Source: Acidimicrobiales bacterium
Lineage (GTDB): Bacteria > Actinomycetota > Acidimicrobiia > Acidimicrobiales > MedAcidi-G1
Direction of reading: 5' to 3'
Length of the DNA: 64,000 bases
NCBI GenBank assembly: GCA_029577135.1
Contig: JARQPW010000002.1
Location: 1-64,000 of the forward strand
The translations under genes were made by a program, and so were the position numbers. Position 1 is the first letter of the stretch; the number at the start of each line of letters is the position of its first letter. The notes below the pieces were generated by a model. The model ran no database searches. It was not told where the DNA came from and saw only the letters and a program-made list of their open reading frames with translations. Of the stretch, positions 7,499 through 63,576 are shown piece after piece.

Positions 7499-8833
7499 AT
7501 GGCCCTGCGCTTCGGCACCGACGGAGTTCGTGCCCGGGCCGACACCGTGTTCACCGAGTCGGTCGTGCGCGCCCTCGGGCATGCCGCCGCCGGCCACCTG
7601 GGTGCGGACATCATCGTCATCGGCCACGACACCCGGGCCTCCGGCGAGGCGCTGTCCCGGGCGCTGGCCGAGGGCTTCCTCGAGGGCGGTGTCGAGGTTC
7701 GCCAGCTGGGCATGGCCCCGACACCGGCCGTCGCCCACGTGGCGGCGGCCGACGGGATCGCCGGTGCCGTGGTCTCCGCCTCGCACAACCCCTGGACCGA
7801 CAACGGCGTGAAGCTCTTCGCTGCCGGGGGCCACAAGCTCGACGACGCGGCGCAGGTTGAACTCCAGGCCAGTTGGGACGAGACCCCCGGCCTCGACGCC
7901 TCCGGCCGTGCGGTGCCCGAACCTGCGTCCGACGGCCGTTGGGTCGAGGCGGTCGCGTCCTCGGTCGACGTCGGTGCCCTCGTTGGGCTCACGCTCGTCG
8001 TCGACTGCGCACACGGCGCCATGTCGACGGTCGCACCCGCCGTGCTCGAGCGCCTAGGCGCAGAGGTCACCGTCCTCAATGCGACGCCGGACGGCCGCAA
8101 CATCAACCACCTCTGCGGTTCGATGCACCCCGAGGGGCTGCAACGGGCCGTGGTCGACGCCGGTGCCGATGCCGGCCTGGCGTTCGACGGCGATGGCGAC
8201 CGGGTCGTCGCCGTCGGAGCCGATGGCACCCTCCTCGACGGCGACCACCTCCTGGCGGCCTGCGGGATCGACCTCCACGGACGGGGCCTCCTGGCCGACG
8301 ACACCGTCGTCGGGACCGTCATGGCGAACCTCGGACTGCGGCTTGCGTTCGGCGCCTGCGGAATCTCCTTCCACGAGACTGCTGTGGGCGACCGCTACGT
8401 CCTCGAGGCGCTCGAGGCGAACGGCTGGACGCTCGGTGGGGAACAGTCCGGCCACCTGATCTTCCGCCACCTCGCCACCACGGGCGACGGCCTCCTCGCC
8501 GGAATCCAGGCGCTCGATGCCGCCCGCCGTCGCGGACGCACGCTCGGGGAGTGGACCACCGAATTGTTGGTCAAGGTGCCCCAGGTCCTCCGGGCCGTGG
8601 CCGTCGAAGGCTCCGGTGAGACGGTGGTCGAGGCCATGGCCGACGACATCGCCACGACGGCCGACCTGTTGGGCGACGAGGGTCGCGTCGTGGTTCGACC
8701 GTCGGGGACCGAATCCGTTGTCCGGGTCATGGTCGAGGCGCTCGACGCCGAGCTGGCGCGCAAGCTCGCCGACGAGCTCTGCGCGACGGCACAACGGACT
8801 GCCGAACGGGACGCGGGCTCCTCACAGGGGTGA
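7499..8833 (+). CDS. glmM: Phosphoglucosamine mutase
   Basis: Interconverts glucosamine-6-phosphate and glucosamine-1-phosphate, the second step to UDP-GlcNAc for peptidoglycan. The 444 residues match the family's usual 445 or so. The phosphoserine loop SASHNPWTDNG has the active Ser at residue 95. The metal-binding FDGDGDR and the sugar loop GGEQSGHLIF are present, as is the phosphate loop RPSGTES near the end. glmS lies 69 nt downstream, so the two steps are adjacent. A possible TAGCCC box at 7483-7488 would give a very short leader. Confidence 0.96.
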   Translation: MALRFGTDGVRARADTVFTESVVRALGHAAAGHLGADIIVIGHDTRASGEALSRALAEGFLEGGVEVRQLGMAPTPAVAHVAAADGIAGAVVSASHNPWTDNGVKLFAAGGHKLDDAAQVELQASWDETPGLDASGRAVPEPASDGRWVEAVASSVDVGALVGLTLVVDCAHGAMSTVAPAVLERLGAEVTVLNATPDGRNINHLCGSMHPEGLQRAVVDAGADAGLAFDGDGDRVVAVGADGTLLDGDHLLAACGIDLHGRGLLADDTVVGTVMANLGLRLAFGACGISFHETAVGDRYVLEALEANGWTLGGEQSGHLIFRHLATTGDGLLAGIQALDAARRRGRTLGEWTTELLVKVPQVLRAVAVEGSGETVVEAMADDIATTADLLGDEGRVVVRPSGTESVVRVMVEALDAELARKLADELCATAQRTAERDAGSSQG

Positions 8834-8838
8834 AGGCG

Positions 8839-8844
8839 TAGAAT
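8839..8844 (+). promoter_or_regulatory. Possible -10 box upstream of glmS
   Basis: TAGAAT lies in the 69-nt glmM-glmS gap and would give a leader of about 50 nt, ending with a GGGAAGGA ribosome site. No clear -35 is seen. The gap is too short for a glmS ribozyme. Confidence 0.35.
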
Positions 8845-8902
8845 CCAACCCGAGGCGGCTCGACGGGTCGTCGGACGGCTGCGGGAAGGAAACCAGGACA
8901 CG

Positions 8903-11900
8903 ATGTGCGGCATCATCGCGGTGCTTCGGCGCCCCGCCACCCGCTCGGCCCCCTTGGCCGACGCAGTGGTCGCCCCCATCCGACGGGCCGCCGACCTGCT
9001 CGGCGCAGGCGATCCCGTCGACCTCGCCGAGGCTGCGGGTTGCCTGGAGGAGGTCGACGCCCTCCTCGGGGGTACCCCGGGGCTCGAGTCCCTGCTCGGC
9101 ACGGGCGGCCTGCTCGACGCAGTCGCCGAGGACCTGGCGGGCGTGCGCACACAGTTCGCGTCCGTCGAGTCTGCGCTCGAGGCCCGCATCGGTGACCGGG
9201 AAGCGGGAAACGCAGCGCTGGTGCGGCTCCGGGACGCCGCCTGGGCGATCTCCAACGACCGCCTGGGTGCCGCCCGTGGCGTGTCCGCACTCTCCTCGAC
9301 GGCCGATCCGCCCAGCCGATCCGGACAGGCGGTCCTCCTGTCGGTCCAGCAGGCGCTCAGCGCACTCGACCGCCTGGAGGTGCGGGGCCGCGACTCCGCC
9401 GGGCTCCAGGTCACCCTCTGGAACCACGGACTCGACGTGTCTGACCCGGCCATCGCTGCGCTGTTGGCCACGCGGACGTCCGACCCGCTCCTGCGCTCGG
9501 GGAGCGCCCGGGTGCTCCCCGGGGGCGGTCTGGCGCTGGTCGTCAAGACGGCCGCCGAGATCGGGGAGCTGGGCGACAACACGTCGGCGTTGCGCCGGGC
9601 GCTCGTCGGCGACGAACTCCTGGCCCGTGCCCTCGCCGGCGAGGCGGTCCGGGGATCGGTGCTCGGGCACACCAGGTGGGCCAGCTTCGGGATCATCGCC
9701 GAGGCCAACGCCCATCCGCTCGACTCGACGGGCAGCGACGGCGTCGCGCCGGGCCGCTTCGTGTCGGCCGTCCAGAACGGCGATGTCGACAACCACGCCG
9801 ACCTGGTCGTTTCCGAACGCCTCGACGTGCCCGATGCCATCACGACCGATGCGAAGGTCGTGCCGCTCCTGTGCGCCCGCCACCTCGACGCCGGCGAGTC
9901 GCCCGACGAGGCGTTCCGCCGGGCGGTCCGGGCCTTCGAGGGGTCGCTTGCCATTGCCGCGTCGTTCGGTGCGACGCCCGACCGCCTCCACCTGTCGCTT
10001 CGGGGCAGCGGCCAGGCCCTCTACGTCGGCCTCGCCGAGGATGCATTCATCGTGGCCAGCGAGCCCTACGGCGTGGTCGAACTCACCATCGACTATGTCC
10101 GCATGGACGGCGAGGTGCCGGCCGAAGCGGACAACCCCGCGACCCGGGGGCAGTTGATCGAACTGGACGGCTCCGCAGCAGGCACGTTGGCGGGGATGCG
10201 CCGCCGGTCCTTCGACGGCCACGACCTTCCGTTGGGCGACGACGACGTTGCCCGGGCCGGCATCACCACCCGGGACATCGACCGGGGCGACCACCCCCAC
10301 TACCTCCTGAAGGAGATCGGTGAGTCGCCCGACTCGGTGCGGTCCACCCTCCGGGGCCGGCTCCTCGAGGATTCCGACGGGCTGGTCGTCTCGATGGCGC
10401 CCGGGGTCATGTCCGACTCGCTGCGGGCCGACCTGGCGTCAGGGCGGATCTCGAAGGTGGTCGTCATCGGCCAGGGCACTGCAGCGATCGCCGGTGACGC
10501 GGTGGCCGGCGCCATCGGTGCCGAGCTCGTGAGCACCGGGATCAACGTCTCGTCCCGGCCCGCCACGGAGCTCTCCGGCTTCGGACTGCAGCCCGACATG
10601 GCCGACACGCTGGTCGTTGCCATCAGCCAGTCGGGTACGACCACCGACACCAACCGCACCGTCGACCTGGTCCGCTCCCGCGGCGGACGGGTCCTGGCGA
10701 TCGTCAACCGCCGCAACAGCGACCTGACCGACCGTGCCGACGGTGTGCTCTACACCTCCGACGGTCGCGACGTCGAGATGAGCGTCGCCTCCACGAAGGC
10801 GTTCTACGCCCAGGTCGTGGCGGGCTTCCTGCTCGGTGCCGCCCTGGCCGACGCCGTGGGTGCCCCGGGCGCTCCCGACCGCGCCGGCCTGCTCGCAGGG
10901 CTCCGCTCGTTGCCCGACGCCATGGCGCAGGTGTTCGCCGGCCGGGAGCGGATCGCCGACCTGGCAATCCGCTACGCGCCCGGCCGCCGCTACTGGGCGG
11001 TGGTCGGCAACGGAGCGAACCTCGTCGCCGCCCGCGAGATCCGGATCAAGCTCTCGGAGCTCTGCTACAAGGCGATCGCCGCCGACGCCACCGAGGACAA
11101 GAAGCACATCGACCTCTCGTCGGAACCGTTGATCCTCGTCTGCGTCAACGGCCTTTCGGGTTCGACCATCGACGACGTGGCCAAGGAGGTGGCGATCTTC
11201 AGGGCCCACCAGGCGGCGCCCCTCGTGATCACGGACGCCCCGTGGCGGTATCCCGAGGCCCTCGACGTCGTTGAGGTGCCGGTGGTGCACCCCCGACTGG
11301 CCTTCGTGCTGGCCACGATGGTCGGCCACCTGTTCGGCTACGAGGCCGCCCTGGCGATCGACGCCCAGGCCCATCCGCTCCGCGAGGCACATGCCGCCAT
11401 CGAACAGGCGGCTGCCGGTGAGATGGGCGGATCCTTCGACGAGGCCGCAGGTGGACCGGGGGGCGATGCCCTCTTCGACGCCGTCCGCGAGCGCCTCCTG
11501 CCCTGCGCCGGCCGCTTCCACGACGAGCTCCGCTCCGGCCGCCTCAACGGTCACCTCGAGGCCGCCACTGCGGTCCGCCTTGCGTCGTTGTTCCGGTATG
11601 CCCTCGGTGACGTTCCCCTGGAGTCGTACCAGCGAGAGTTCGGCAGGGTCGGCACGCCCGCCCTCGTCCTCGACGACCTGGCCTCGGCCCTGACGGTCGC
11701 CATCGAGGAGCTCGCCCGTCCCGTGGACGCCATCAAGCACCAGGCCAAGACCGTCACGGTCGGCATCTCGCGAACCGACGAGACCCTCCTCGAGGCCCGA
11801 CTCACCCGTGCCCTGCTCGATGCCGGTGCGCCCCGGGACGGCCTCACCTACCGGACGCTCCGCCTGCTGCTGGCCCTCGACCCGGCCGTGGCCGAGATCA

Positions 11901-39386: not shown

Positions 39387-40106
39387 ATGCGACGGGTACG
39401 GATCATCGGGCCCGGACGGGCCGGCAGCTCTCTGGCAGCGGCACTGGGCCGCTGCGGCTGGTCCGTCGAGCCACTCCTCGGCCGCGACGACGACCCCTCC
39501 TCGGCAGCCGAAGGCGTCGACCTGTTGGTGGTCGCCACCCCCGACCGGGTGGTCGCCGACGTTGCCGCCTCAGTGGGTCCCGACCCGGACACGGTCGTGG
39601 CGCACCTCTCCGGAGCCCTGGGACTCGAGGCCCTGGCGCCCCACCTGCGAAGGGCCGCCTGCCATCCGCTGGTGTCGTTGGCCGACGCCGACCGGGGCGC
39701 CGATCTGTTGTGCGGCGGCGCCTGGTTCGCCGTGGCGGGCGATCCGCTCGTCAACGAGGTGGTCGAGGCGCTGGGGGGACGGACCGTCACCGTCGACGAC
39801 GCCGACCGGTCGACCTACCACGCCGCTGCCGTGCTGGCGTCGAACCACCTCGTGGCGCTGCTGGGACAGGTCGAACGCATCGCCGGACCGCTCGGCATCC
39901 CGCTCGACGCCTTCCTCGACCTCGCCGAGGGGAGCCTCGCCAACGTGCGCGCACTGGGCCCCGCCGACGCGCTGACCGGACCGGCGGCCCGGGGTGACGA
40001 GGCCACCATCGACCGCCACCTCGCCGCCCTGTCCGCCGACGAGCATGCCGCGTACAAGGCCCTGGCCGACCTGGCCAGGAGGCTGGCGGGGCGACGTCGG
40101 CCATGA
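39387..40106 (+). CDS. panG: DUF2520 Rossmann protein, PanG-type ketopantoate reductase candidate
   Basis: A 239-residue NADP-binding protein with a Rossmann start RVRIIGPGRAGSSLAAAL and a C-terminal DUF2520 helical domain (STYHAAAVLASNHLVALLGQ). The family includes PanG, an alternative ketopantoate reductase described in Francisella and some Clostridium species. Its ATGA coupling to panC, the next pantothenate enzyme, supports that role here. No panE or panB is in the window. Function is inferred from family and neighbour. Confidence 0.8.
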   Translation: MRRVRIIGPGRAGSSLAAALGRCGWSVEPLLGRDDDPSSAAEGVDLLVVATPDRVVADVAASVGPDPDTVVAHLSGALGLEALAPHLRRAACHPLVSLADADRGADLLCGGAWFAVAGDPLVNEVVEALGGRTVTVDDADRSTYHAAAVLASNHLVALLGQVERIAGPLGIPLDAFLDLAEGSLANVRALGPADALTGPAARGDEATIDRHLAALSADEHAAYKALADLARRLAGRRRP

Positions 40107-40966
40107 GTCGACCGGAGGTCGTCGGCTCCGTCGCCGACCTGCAGGAACGCCTCGATGCCACCCGGGCGGCGGGGGCATCGGTGGGCTTCGTGCCGACCAT
40201 GGGGTACCTCCACCAGGGGCACGCCTCGCTGATCGACGCCGCCGTCGCTGCGGACGACCTCACCGTGGTTTCGATCTTCGTCAACCCCCTCCAGTTCGCC
40301 TCCGACGAGGACCTGGCCGACTACCCGAGGGACCTCGAGGCCGACCTCGCCTGTTGCGGAGAGCACGGCGCCGACCTGGTGTTCCATCCGACGGCCCGGG
40401 AGGTCTACCCGGAGGGCGCCGACGAGCCGGTCGCCGTCGGTGCCGTCGGTGGGCCCCTGGAGGGGGCGAACCGACCCACCCACTTCGCCGGCGTGGCCAC
40501 CGTTGTCGCCCGGCTGTTCCGGATCTTGGGCCGCTGCCGGGCCTACCTCGGCGAAAAGGACTTCCAGCAGTTGGCGGTGGTGCGCCGGATGGTCGCCGAC
40601 CTGGACCTGCCCGTCGAGGTGGTGGGCTGTCCGATCGTGCGCGAGTCCGACGGCCTTGCACTCTCGAGCCGAAACGTCTACCTCGAACCGGACGAACGGC
40701 GCCAGGCACCTGTGCTGTACCGGGCGCTCCGGGCGGGAGTCGCTGCAGTCGAGTGCGGTGGTGGCGACCCGGTGGCCGTGGTGGGGGCGATGGAGGCCGT
40801 GCTGGCCGATGCGCCGGACCTCGCCGTCGACTACGCCGCGCTCGTCGAACCCGACACCTTCGCCGTGCCGGAGCGGATCGCCACCGGGAGCGAGGTCCGG
40901 CTCCTGGTCGCCGGCCGCCTCGGTCGGGCCCGCCTCATCGACAACGTGGGGGCGACGGCTCCGTGA
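40103..40966 (+). CDS. panC: Pantothenate synthetase
   Basis: Joins pantoate and beta-alanine using ATP. The 287 residues include GFVPTMGYLHQGHASLI (the HxGH nucleotide motif), VSIFVNPLQF, YPRDLEADL, GEKDFQQLAVV and ALSSRNVYL. The C-terminal domain is complete. It overlaps panG by 4 nt and the nad remnant by 4 nt (GTGA). The aspartate decarboxylase gene panD, adjacent in mycobacteria, is missing here. Confidence 0.96.
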   Translation: MSRPEVVGSVADLQERLDATRAAGASVGFVPTMGYLHQGHASLIDAAVAADDLTVVSIFVNPLQFASDEDLADYPRDLEADLACCGEHGADLVFHPTAREVYPEGADEPVAVGAVGGPLEGANRPTHFAGVATVVARLFRILGRCRAYLGEKDFQQLAVVRRMVADLDLPVEVVGCPIVRESDGLALSSRNVYLEPDERRQAPVLYRALRAGVAAVECGGGDPVAVVGAMEAVLADAPDLAVDYAALVEPDTFAVPERIATGSEVRLLVAGRLGRARLIDNVGATAP

Positions 40967-41448
40967 GTCCGGAAGCGCAGCACCTCGACCTGGTGGTGGT
41001 CGGCAGCGGAGTCGCCGGCCTCTCGGCCGCCGTCCGGGCCGGCGGAGGCCACAACCACCCCGCGAACCTGAGCGACAGCGTGATGCTCAAGGACAACCAC
41101 CTGTTCGGCACCGACATCACGTCGGCCGTCGCCCGGTCCCGCGGCCTCCGGCCGGATCGGATCGTCCACGTCGAGTGCGACACCCTCGACCAGGTCCGCG
41201 AGGCACTTTCGGCGGAAGCCGACGCACTGCTGCTCGACAACATGGTCCCGCACCTCGTGCGGGAGGCCGTCGGCATCGCCCGCTCCTTCGGCGAGGACGG
41301 CGGGAGCGTGCCCCTGCTCGAGGCCTCGGCAGGGATCACGCTCGGGACGGTGGCCGACTACGCAGCGACCGGTGTGGACTGCGTTTCCAGCGTTTCGCTG
41401 ACCCAGGCCGCCCCGGCGCTGGACATCGGCCTGGACCTCGGCCGTTGA
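40963..41448 (+). pseudogene. nadB'-'nadC chimera: NadB N-terminus fused to the NadC C-terminal half
   Basis: A 161-codon intact frame that cannot encode either parent enzyme. Residues 1-26 are the FAD-binding start of L-aspartate oxidase (HLDLVVVGSGVAGLSAAVRA). From residue 24-27 the sequence becomes the second half of quinolinate phosphoribosyltransferase: GGGHNHPANLSDSVMLKDNH, DALLLDNMVPH, LEASAGITLGTVADYAATGVD and ALDIGLDLGR. Missing are roughly 495 NadB codons and 155 NadC codons, about 2 kb. The quinolinate-binding His-Arg pair reads His-Pro here. Both proteins usually have A-V-R-A/T at this point, so a short shared sequence may have joined them. It is either a real deletion or an assembly collapse. 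Confidence 0.85.
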
Positions 41449-41521: not shown

Positions 41522-42313
41522 TTGCTGCTGACCATCGACGTGGGGAACACCCAGACCGTCATCGGGCTCTACGACCGCGAACTCACCTCGGGGACGACCG
41601 CCGCCGCCGGCCTGTTCGACCACTGGCGTATCGCCACCGACGCGGCACGAACCGCCGACGAGCACGCCGTCGTGATCCGGAGCCTGCTGCAGTCGTCGGG
41701 CTACCCGTTCGACGTGGACGGCGTGGCGATCTGCGCCGGCGTGCCCCGGGTTCTCGCAAGCCTGCGGGAGATGATCGACCGCAACATCGACGTCGACCCG
41801 GTCGTGATCGAGCCCGGCGTCCGGACCGGGATGGCGATCCTCTACGACAACCCCAAGGAGGTCGGCGCCGACCGCATCGCCAACGCGGTTGCCGCCTTCG
41901 ACCTCTACGGCGGCCCGACCGTCGTGGTCGACTTCGGCACGGGCAACAACTTCGACGTCATCTCCGCCGACGGAGAGTTCCTCGGGGGAGCCATCGCCCC
42001 GGGGGTCGAGATCAGCCTGGACGCCCTCTTCGAGCGGGCGGCGGCCCTACGGACCGTCGAGTTGGTGGCACCCCGCAGCGTCATCGGCAAGAACACCGTC
42101 GAGTCCCTACAGTCGGGCGCCGTGTTCGGATTCGCCTCGCAGATCGACGGCATGGTCGAACGGTTCCGGTCCGAGTTGGGCGGCTGCACGGTCGTCGCCA
42201 CCGGCGGGCTGGCCCCCCTGATCGCCCCGGCGGCTGCGACGATCGAGCACGTCGAGCCCTTCCTGACGCTCCACGGCCTGCGCATCGTCTTCCACCGGAA
42301 TCAGGAGCACTGA
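41522..42313 (+). CDS. coaX: Type III pantothenate kinase
   Basis: The first step of CoA synthesis, ATP + pantothenate; this type is insensitive to CoA feedback. The 263 residues have LTIDVGNTQTVIGLYD, GADRIANAVAAF and FLGGAIAPGVEISLDALFERAA. The usual DFGTATTFD loop reads DFGTGNNFD here. TTG 41522 is the start, 7 nt after GGAGGAG. The 73-nt gap before it holds a GATGAT that could be a -10 (41480-41485). Confidence 0.93.
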   Translation: MLLTIDVGNTQTVIGLYDRELTSGTTAAAGLFDHWRIATDAARTADEHAVVIRSLLQSSGYPFDVDGVAICAGVPRVLASLREMIDRNIDVDPVVIEPGVRTGMAILYDNPKEVGADRIANAVAAFDLYGGPTVVVDFGTGNNFDVISADGEFLGGAIAPGVEISLDALFERAAALRTVELVAPRSVIGKNTVESLQSGAVFGFASQIDGMVERFRSELGGCTVVATGGLAPLIAPAAATIEHVEPFLTLHGLRIVFHRNQEH

Positions 42314-61266: not shown

Positions 61267-63576
61267 ATGACGGTCGACGCACCGACCTATTCGATCGACG
61301 ACCTGCTCGAAGACGACGGCCTGACCGGAATCTCATGGTGTGAGGCCCGGGCAGATCGGGTCGACGAATATCTGGCAGCCCTCCATGCTGCGGCCGACGC
61401 TCCGGCTGGCACCGCCCTCGTGGCGCTCGGTGGCTATGGGCGACGGGAACTGTGCCCGGGCAGCGACCTCGACGTGGCGCTGGTACACGCCCCCGGCGTA
61501 GAGATCGGTGCGGTCGCCGACCGTCTCTGGTATCCGGTGTGGGACGCAGGCCTCAAGCTGGGCCACCAGGTGGGCACGGTCGACCAGGTCCTCGAGGTGG
61601 CCCGCGAGAGCCTCGACACCGCCACGAGCCTGTTGAGCGCTCGGCTGGTGGCCGGCGACGACTTCCTGGCCGGAGCCCTGGCAGACGGGGGGAGGGCCCA
61701 GTGGTCGTCCCGCTGGCGAAGACACCTCCGGGACCTCGGCACGGCGGCCGGTGAGCGGCACGCCCGGTTCGGCGAGGTCGCCTTCCTGCTCGAGCCCGAC
61801 CTCAAGGAGGCCCGCGGCGGCCTGCGCGATGTCCACACCCTCGGCTGGCTCGAGATGAACGGGCCAGTGCTCCGCGAGGCCGAGTCGGCGGCGCTGGCGG
61901 AGGCCGCCGAGACCCTCTTGGCTGCACGCGTGGAGCTGCACCGGGTCACGGGGCGGCTCAGCGACCGCCTGTTGCTGGAGCTCCAGGACGAGGTGGCCGA
62001 CCGGCTGGGCTACCGGGACGCCGATCTGCTGATGGCGGACGTCGCCGGTGCGGGGCGCACCATCGCCTGGACCGGCGACGGAGTGCTGCGGCGGATCAGC
62101 TGGGCACTGCGCGACCAGGGGCGTCGGATGCCCCCCGTCCTCCGGCGCCGCCGCGAGGTGGCCCCGGGGATGTCCCTCGAGGACGGCCTGATCCACCTCG
62201 CCGACTCGGCGAGCTTTGACGACCCGCTCGCGGTCCTGCGATGCGCCCACGTGGCGGCGGGCCACGAGGCCCTCCTGGCCCGACGTGCGCTTGAGCGCCT
62301 TGCCGCCGAGGCGCCCCCGCTGCCGGAGCCCTGGCCCGAGGAGGCGCGGCACCTCTTCGTGGATCTGCTGGGCACGGGCGAGCCGGCGGTGGCGGTGATC
62401 GAGGACCTCGACCAGATGGGTCTGTTCGTCCCGATCCTTCCCGAATGGGAGCCCTGCAGGTCCCGGCCGCAGCGCAACGCCTACCACCGCTTCACCGTCG
62501 ACCGGCACCTGCTGACGGCGGCCGCCGAGGCATCGTTCCTTGTCGACCGGGTCGATCGGCCTGACCTCCTGCTCGTCGGAGCACTGCTCCACGACATCGG
62601 CAAGGGCTATCCGGGCGACCACACCGAGGTGGGCCAGGAACTCGTGGCGACCATCGCCTTCCGGATGGGGTTTCCGGCGGCGGACGTCTATCTGCTGGTC
62701 GCCATGGTGGAGCACCACCTGTTGCTGCCCGACGCAGCCACCCGACGCGACCTCGACGACGACGGAACCATCTGGTCCGTGGCGGATGCGGTCGGGGGCC
62801 GCCAACTGCTGGCTCTGCTGGGTGCGCTCACCGAAGCCGACTCGATCGCCACCGGCCCGTCGGCGTGGAGTTCCTGGAAGGCGGAGTTGGTCGAGGAACT
62901 GGTGCGGCGGGTCGACCATGTCCTCGCCGGTGGCGAGTTCGACGAGGTGGTCGGAGGGCGGTTCCCCGACGACGCGCAGCGGGAGATGATCGAGGGCGAG
63001 GAGGTGATCGTGCGTGGTGACGGCGTGACCTTGACCGTCGCGGCCGACAACCGGACGGGTACCTTCTCCAAGATCGCCGGGGTGCTCGCCCTCAACGGAG
63101 CGGGTGTGGTCTCGGCTGCGGCACATACGGAGAACGCCAGGGTCCTCTCGGTGTTCCGGGTGCAGGGAGAGTTCGGCGGAGCCCTCGACTGGGAGCGCAT
63201 CCGCCGACAGGTCGAGTTGGCGCTGGCGGGTCGCCTGGCGGTGGCTGCCCGGCTGGGGGACCGCTCGCGCACCTACCGGACGACGCCGACATCGGCCCGC
63301 CCGGCCAGGCCGAGGGTCACCGTCGACAACCGGAGCTCCGCTTCGGCCACGGTCCTCGAGGTCACGTGCCCGGACGGCGTGGGCGTCCTGTACCGGATCA
63401 CCCGGGCGTTCGCCGAGCTCGACCTCGACATCGTGAGCGCCCGCGTCCAGACGCTGGGCTCCGACGTGGTCGATTCGTTCTACGTCCGGGACTTCTCGGG
63501 GTCCAAGATCCTCGACCTGGAGCACCTGGCTGAGATCGAACTCGCCGTCCTGCGCTGGATCGACGTCGACTTCTGA
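61267..63576 (+). CDS. glnD: PII uridylyltransferase / uridylyl-removing enzyme
   Basis: The nitrogen sensor that modifies the PII protein (in actinobacteria often by adenylylation). The 769 residues have the nucleotidyltransferase motif GGYGRRELCPGSDLD (from residue 55), the HD phosphohydrolase site LLHDIGKGYPGDH (H442, D443) and two C-terminal ACT domains beginning near 586 and 695. No amt or glnK gene is adjacent, unlike the usual amt-glnB-glnD cluster. Confidence 0.94.
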   Translation: MTVDAPTYSIDDLLEDDGLTGISWCEARADRVDEYLAALHAAADAPAGTALVALGGYGRRELCPGSDLDVALVHAPGVEIGAVADRLWYPVWDAGLKLGHQVGTVDQVLEVARESLDTATSLLSARLVAGDDFLAGALADGGRAQWSSRWRRHLRDLGTAAGERHARFGEVAFLLEPDLKEARGGLRDVHTLGWLEMNGPVLREAESAALAEAAETLLAARVELHRVTGRLSDRLLLELQDEVADRLGYRDADLLMADVAGAGRTIAWTGDGVLRRISWALRDQGRRMPPVLRRRREVAPGMSLEDGLIHLADSASFDDPLAVLRCAHVAAGHEALLARRALERLAAEAPPLPEPWPEEARHLFVDLLGTGEPAVAVIEDLDQMGLFVPILPEWEPCRSRPQRNAYHRFTVDRHLLTAAAEASFLVDRVDRPDLLLVGALLHDIGKGYPGDHTEVGQELVATIAFRMGFPAADVYLLVAMVEHHLLLPDAATRRDLDDDGTIWSVADAVGGRQLLALLGALTEADSIATGPSAWSSWKAELVEELVRRVDHVLAGGEFDEVVGGRFPDDAQREMIEGEEVIVRGDGVTLTVAADNRTGTFSKIAGVLALNGAGVVSAAAHTENARVLSVFRVQGEFGGALDWERIRRQVELALAGRLAVAARLGDRSRTYRTTPTSARPARPRVTVDNRSSASATVLEVTCPDGVGVLYRITRAFAELDLDIVSARVQTLGSDVVDSFYVRDFSGSKILDLEHLAEIELAVLRWIDVDF

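Follow-up and report, generated by a model that had tools for sequence, protein, structure and literature searches.

A probable pseudogene left by a short-repeat deletion across nadB and nadC in an Acidimicrobiales genome

The open reading frame (ORF) between panC and coaX in the 64,000-nucleotide stretch of Acidimicrobiales DNA analysed here (the window) is best read as a decaying pseudogene, which would have arisen through a 2007-bp deletion between short repeats and would be among several lesions through which this bacterium lost de novo NAD synthesis. On the basis of sequence comparison, we put the probability of this reading at roughly 0.9. The ORF occupies positions 40,963–41,448 of the forward strand, begins with a GTG start codon and runs uninterrupted for 161 amino acids, joining approximately the first 26 codons of nadB in frame to approximately the last 141 codons of nadC. 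It is preceded by an intact panC (pantoate-beta-alanine ligase; 40,103–40,966, forward strand), a 287-aa ORF with PanC at the same position in congeners, and the TGA stop codon of panC overlaps the GTG start of the fused ORF as GTGA. The downstream neighbour, in conserved synteny, is an intact coaX (type III pantothenate kinase; 41,522–42,313, forward strand) of 263 aa. The window belongs to a 2.35-Mb draft genome (G000) of 68 contigs that is 93% complete, and its congeners include the metagenome-assembled genome (MAG) UBA2131 (G004), NIOZ-UU63 (G001) and UBA2983 (G003).

The original prediction of an in-frame nadB-nadC deletion fusion at this site was borne out by profile matches, identity to congeners and synteny, and the coupling to panC and the open frame that it described are both present. 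Residues 22–158 of the ORF match QRPTase_C (PF01729, 2.2e-32) over profile positions 35–169 of 169, while the NadC model TIGR00078 is matched only over positions 134–268 of 269, with a score of 120.4 bits that falls below the curated cut-off of 198.4 bits for a full-length NadC. The NadC N-terminal domain and the start of the barrel are missing, with NadB sequence upstream instead. The nadC 3' remnant, encoding the C-terminal barrel domain, spans 41,026–41,448 of the forward strand (41,026–41,436 as placed by the family search) and is 84–85% identical to congener NadC. The nadB 5' remnant (40,963–41,039, forward strand) encodes the FAD-binding loop and was recognised by its identity to congener NadB: residues 1–26 are 88% identical to the same residues of G004 NadB, and the first 28 residues are 82–85% identical to the NadB N-termini of G005 and G004. 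The match of the fused ORF to the NadB model (TIGR00551) is weak, since many flavoproteins share a short FAD loop; the catalytic body of NadB is gone. What settles the NadB origin of residues 1–26 is synteny, as the G004 nadB gene lies directly behind panC.

G004 carries a complete panC-nadB-nadC-coaX series at the same place, and the corresponding block of the window is shorter by exactly 2007 bp (669 codons), in agreement with the predicted loss of about 2 kb. A 14-bp direct repeat in G004, GCCGCCGTCCGTGC, has one copy in nadB and one in nadC, spaced 2007 bp apart, and is the longest direct repeat in the G004 segment that runs from the panC end to the nadC end. This repeat and its spacing support the proposal that a short shared sequence drove the deletion. 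Both copies fall in AAVRA codons and in the same codon phase. One copy (GCCGCCGTCCGGGC) is left in the window as the deletion joint at 41,026–41,039 of the forward strand, and the breakpoint is ambiguous within it. The join had been predicted at bases 41,032–41,046; the junction itself stands, but the exact bases do not, as the repeat begins a few bases earlier. The comparison shows a deletion of 2007 bp between these two short direct repeats, which took out the bulk of nadB together with the first half of nadC; the molecular event was probably replication slippage or RecA-independent recombination. The frame stays open because the repeats share a codon phase, so selection is not needed to account for it. 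Large deletions between short direct repeats are known in decaying bacterial genes. The present case resembles them in ending in a 14-bp repeat of which one copy is left, and differs in that two adjacent genes carry the repeat in one and the same codon phase, giving an in-frame fusion. The kind of event is already known and its mechanism is ordinary; a literature search returned no report of this nadB-nadC fusion.

Further decay is visible in the closest relative, G002 (92–94% identity in the flanks), which has lost even more of the nadB-nadC locus than the window's genome. Alignment showed that it lacks the bases equivalent to 41,009–41,362 (forward strand) of the window and retains nothing of the remnant but its two ends, and that the missing length breaks the frame. 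The comparison of close relatives proposed with the original prediction has therefore yielded one intact locus (G004) and one that is further eroded (G002), which makes this a gene loss caught with its mechanism legible, where repeat, deletion and later decay can be read from close relatives.

The fused ORF has also lost residues that are conserved in NadC. The predicted replacement of the NadC His-Arg pair by His-Pro was confirmed: the HNHR motif reads HNHP (R33P), where 96 of 96 NadC relatives have Arg. In addition, SGG has become SAG through substitution of the first glycine (G123A), again at a position unchanged in all 96 relatives, and two further substitutions affect positions that are invariant across 18 family sequences. 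In known NadC structures, the N-terminal domain helps to complete the active site. With the NadB body, the NadC N-terminal domain and conserved NadC residues lost, the fused product would be expected to make neither iminoaspartate nor nicotinate mononucleotide. The own-branch dN of the nadC fragment is 0.04–0.08, compared with 0.01–0.03 for CoaX, and its own-branch dN/dS, which mixes in time before the deletion, is 0.14–0.67 depending on the bracketing pair, above that of CoaX and not neutral. With no stop codon in the frame and a dN/dS of this kind, the deletion may be recent, or some constraint may have persisted after it. A non-neutral value is expected if the loss is recent; the test is weak.

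These data bear on an alternative in which the ORF encodes a functional small protein, a truncated NadC or a regulator, that selection has maintained since the deletion. The open frame and intact GTGA coupling, the fragment dN/dS of less than 1 and the identity to congener NadC would all suit such a protein. However, the phase of the repeats already accounts for the open frame, residues conserved universally in NadC and its entire N-terminal domain have gone, and G002 has deleted the centre of the remnant out of frame, so that we regard a functional product as highly improbable. High G+C also keeps frames open. The word "chimera" should not imply a working protein here, as the ORF reads as a pseudogene, and the locus is a warning that a good domain match in an open frame is no proof of a gene.

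The nadB-nadC remnant is accompanied by lesions elsewhere in the window's genome. On contig C41 (3546–4376), nadA persists as a remnant with an in-frame 555-bp deletion and a downstream frameshift, although the gene is complete in G001 and G004, with both of which its flanks are syntenic. The 3-hydroxyanthranilate dioxygenase (3-HAO) gene and the ACMSD-like gene of G002 are cleanly absent from contig C4, which has 44 bp in place of the 1956 bp of G002 (61,814–61,859, compared with 8764–10,721 of G002 locus L183). The breakage of nadA and the deletion of the 3-hydroxyanthranilate branch to quinolinate would add to the loss of de novo NAD synthesis. No second NadC, NadB or intact NadA was found in the 93%-complete genome; this upholds the predicted loss of de novo synthesis by the locus and, within that portion of the genome, excludes the suggested reliance on other copies. 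A match on contig C23 was considered as a second NadB and rejected, as it lies far below the NadB cut-off; it is probably a succinate dehydrogenase/fumarate reductase flavoprotein. The observations that count against the pseudogene reading include the stop-free frame and the lengths of the nadB-nadC and nadA deletions, both of which are multiples of three, for which the chance expectation is 1/9.

An assembly or consensus error, in which two similar stretches were joined across 2 kb of a genome whose nadB and nadC are in fact intact, would be in keeping with a 68-contig draft and a join that falls on a repeat. Another MAG supplies a potential parallel, as its contig L059 (coverage approximately 3x) has a comparable pair of in-frame gaps in PanC and NadC. 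Nevertheless, the G004 repeat is only 14 bp, which is shorter than the usual assembler k-mers, and a search of 2.09 Mb of the 2.35-Mb genome gave no second occurrence of any 19-mer around the join. Erosion has gone further at this locus in G002, and nadA and 3-HAO have been lost too, on other contigs. Alignment of 335 kb of the window's genome with G002 gave 13 larger gaps, including four of at least 80 bp in which the window's genome is the shorter. On inspection, none of these four cut a conserved essential gene; they removed the 3-HAO/ACMSD pair and, judging from translations, apparent accessory genes (an esterase, a flavin oxidoreductase and a dioxygenase). We therefore consider an artefactual join very unlikely. 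The gaps in L059 (1940–2937) are internal to PanC (residues 114 to 238) and NadC (37 to 180) on a single low-coverage contig, and could reflect either artefact or decay.

Loss of nadA or nadB with a resulting dependence on niacin is well known, as in Shigella and Escherichia coli NC101, where inactivation of these genes makes the cell auxotrophic for nicotinic acid (PMC8207962 and references therein). The likeness lies in independent lesions that remove de novo NAD genes and create a need for an external pyridine. Those bacteria are host-associated and nicotinate salvage compensates for the loss, whereas in the window's genome nadC has been destroyed too and no PncB or NadV was found. The predicted dependence on salvage gained no support from family searches: neither the PncB/NadV families (PF04095, TIGR01513 and PF17767) nor PnuC (PF04973) had a match in the six genus genomes (G000–G005), and the only PncB was that of G012, which belongs to another genus. 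All six genomes of the genus have NadE, and E. coli queries retrieved NadD and a PncC/CinA relative from the window's genome, while an E. coli NadR query found no ribosylnicotinamide kinase there.

A complete loss of de novo synthesis is harder to accept because no established salvage route was found, and the question raised is how NAD is produced when the de novo genes and the standard niacin-salvage genes both appear to be missing. The cell would have to take up a pyridine precursor, and the prediction that follows is of an actinobacterial lineage that relies on others for this compound. A salvage gene may lie in the portions absent from the drafts, unrecognised proteins may import NMN or nicotinamide riboside, or an unknown enzyme may be involved. 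Given that NadD, NadE and the PncC/CinA relative are kept and that the searches gave no phosphoribosyltransferase for nicotinate or nicotinamide, the likeliest route is tentatively suggested to be entry as NMN or nicotinamide riboside, or else an enzyme that was not recognised. A further proposal, which we consider unlikely, is that the window's genome and G002 have lost NadA, NadB, NadC and all recognised niacin phosphoribosyltransferases, keep NadE (and, in the window's genome, NadD), and make NAD by means of an enzyme or an uptake system outside the reach of current family models.

The best reading of the wider family, from gene content, is that the pseudogene belongs to a recurrent loss of de novo NAD synthesis. 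G001 keeps nadA and nadC with a nadB independently eroded by three gaps, G003 has nadC only, with nadB absent, and many family members have panC-nadC-coaX without nadB in between. 3-HAO scores above the cut-off in 19 of 24 family genomes, and many of these keep nadC while lacking nadA and nadB. With quinolinate derived from tryptophan, such genomes may have been able to do without nadA and nadB while keeping nadC, with the caution that 3-HAO adjoins the ACMSD-like gene in G002, a pairing that suits catabolism at least as well as NAD synthesis. The same distribution could be taken to mean that the window's bacterium still makes NAD de novo, using kynurenine-route quinolinate and a NadC encoded elsewhere in the cell. 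The pairing in G002 weighs against this, and the absence of both 3-HAO and NadC from the window's genome contradicts it unless both lie in the missing ~7%, so that such a route is extremely improbable. The window's genome and G002 have instead gone further than their relatives, having lost NadC as well.

In Bordetella and Streptococcus pyogenes, nadC alone is kept for quinolinate salvage and nadA and nadB are missing (PMC11452294). Many relatives of the window's genome resemble them, with nadC kept and nadA and nadB gone. By contrast, NadC is broken in the window's genome, which makes quinolinate salvage impossible. Eroded copies of nadB were seen at two other loci: in NIOZ-UU63 (L039, 6536–7511) the three-gap nadB lies between an intact panC and an intact nadC, in a genome with a complete nadA, and at L043 (7174–7377) an independent NadB stub retaining only residues 8–75 precedes an intact nadC.
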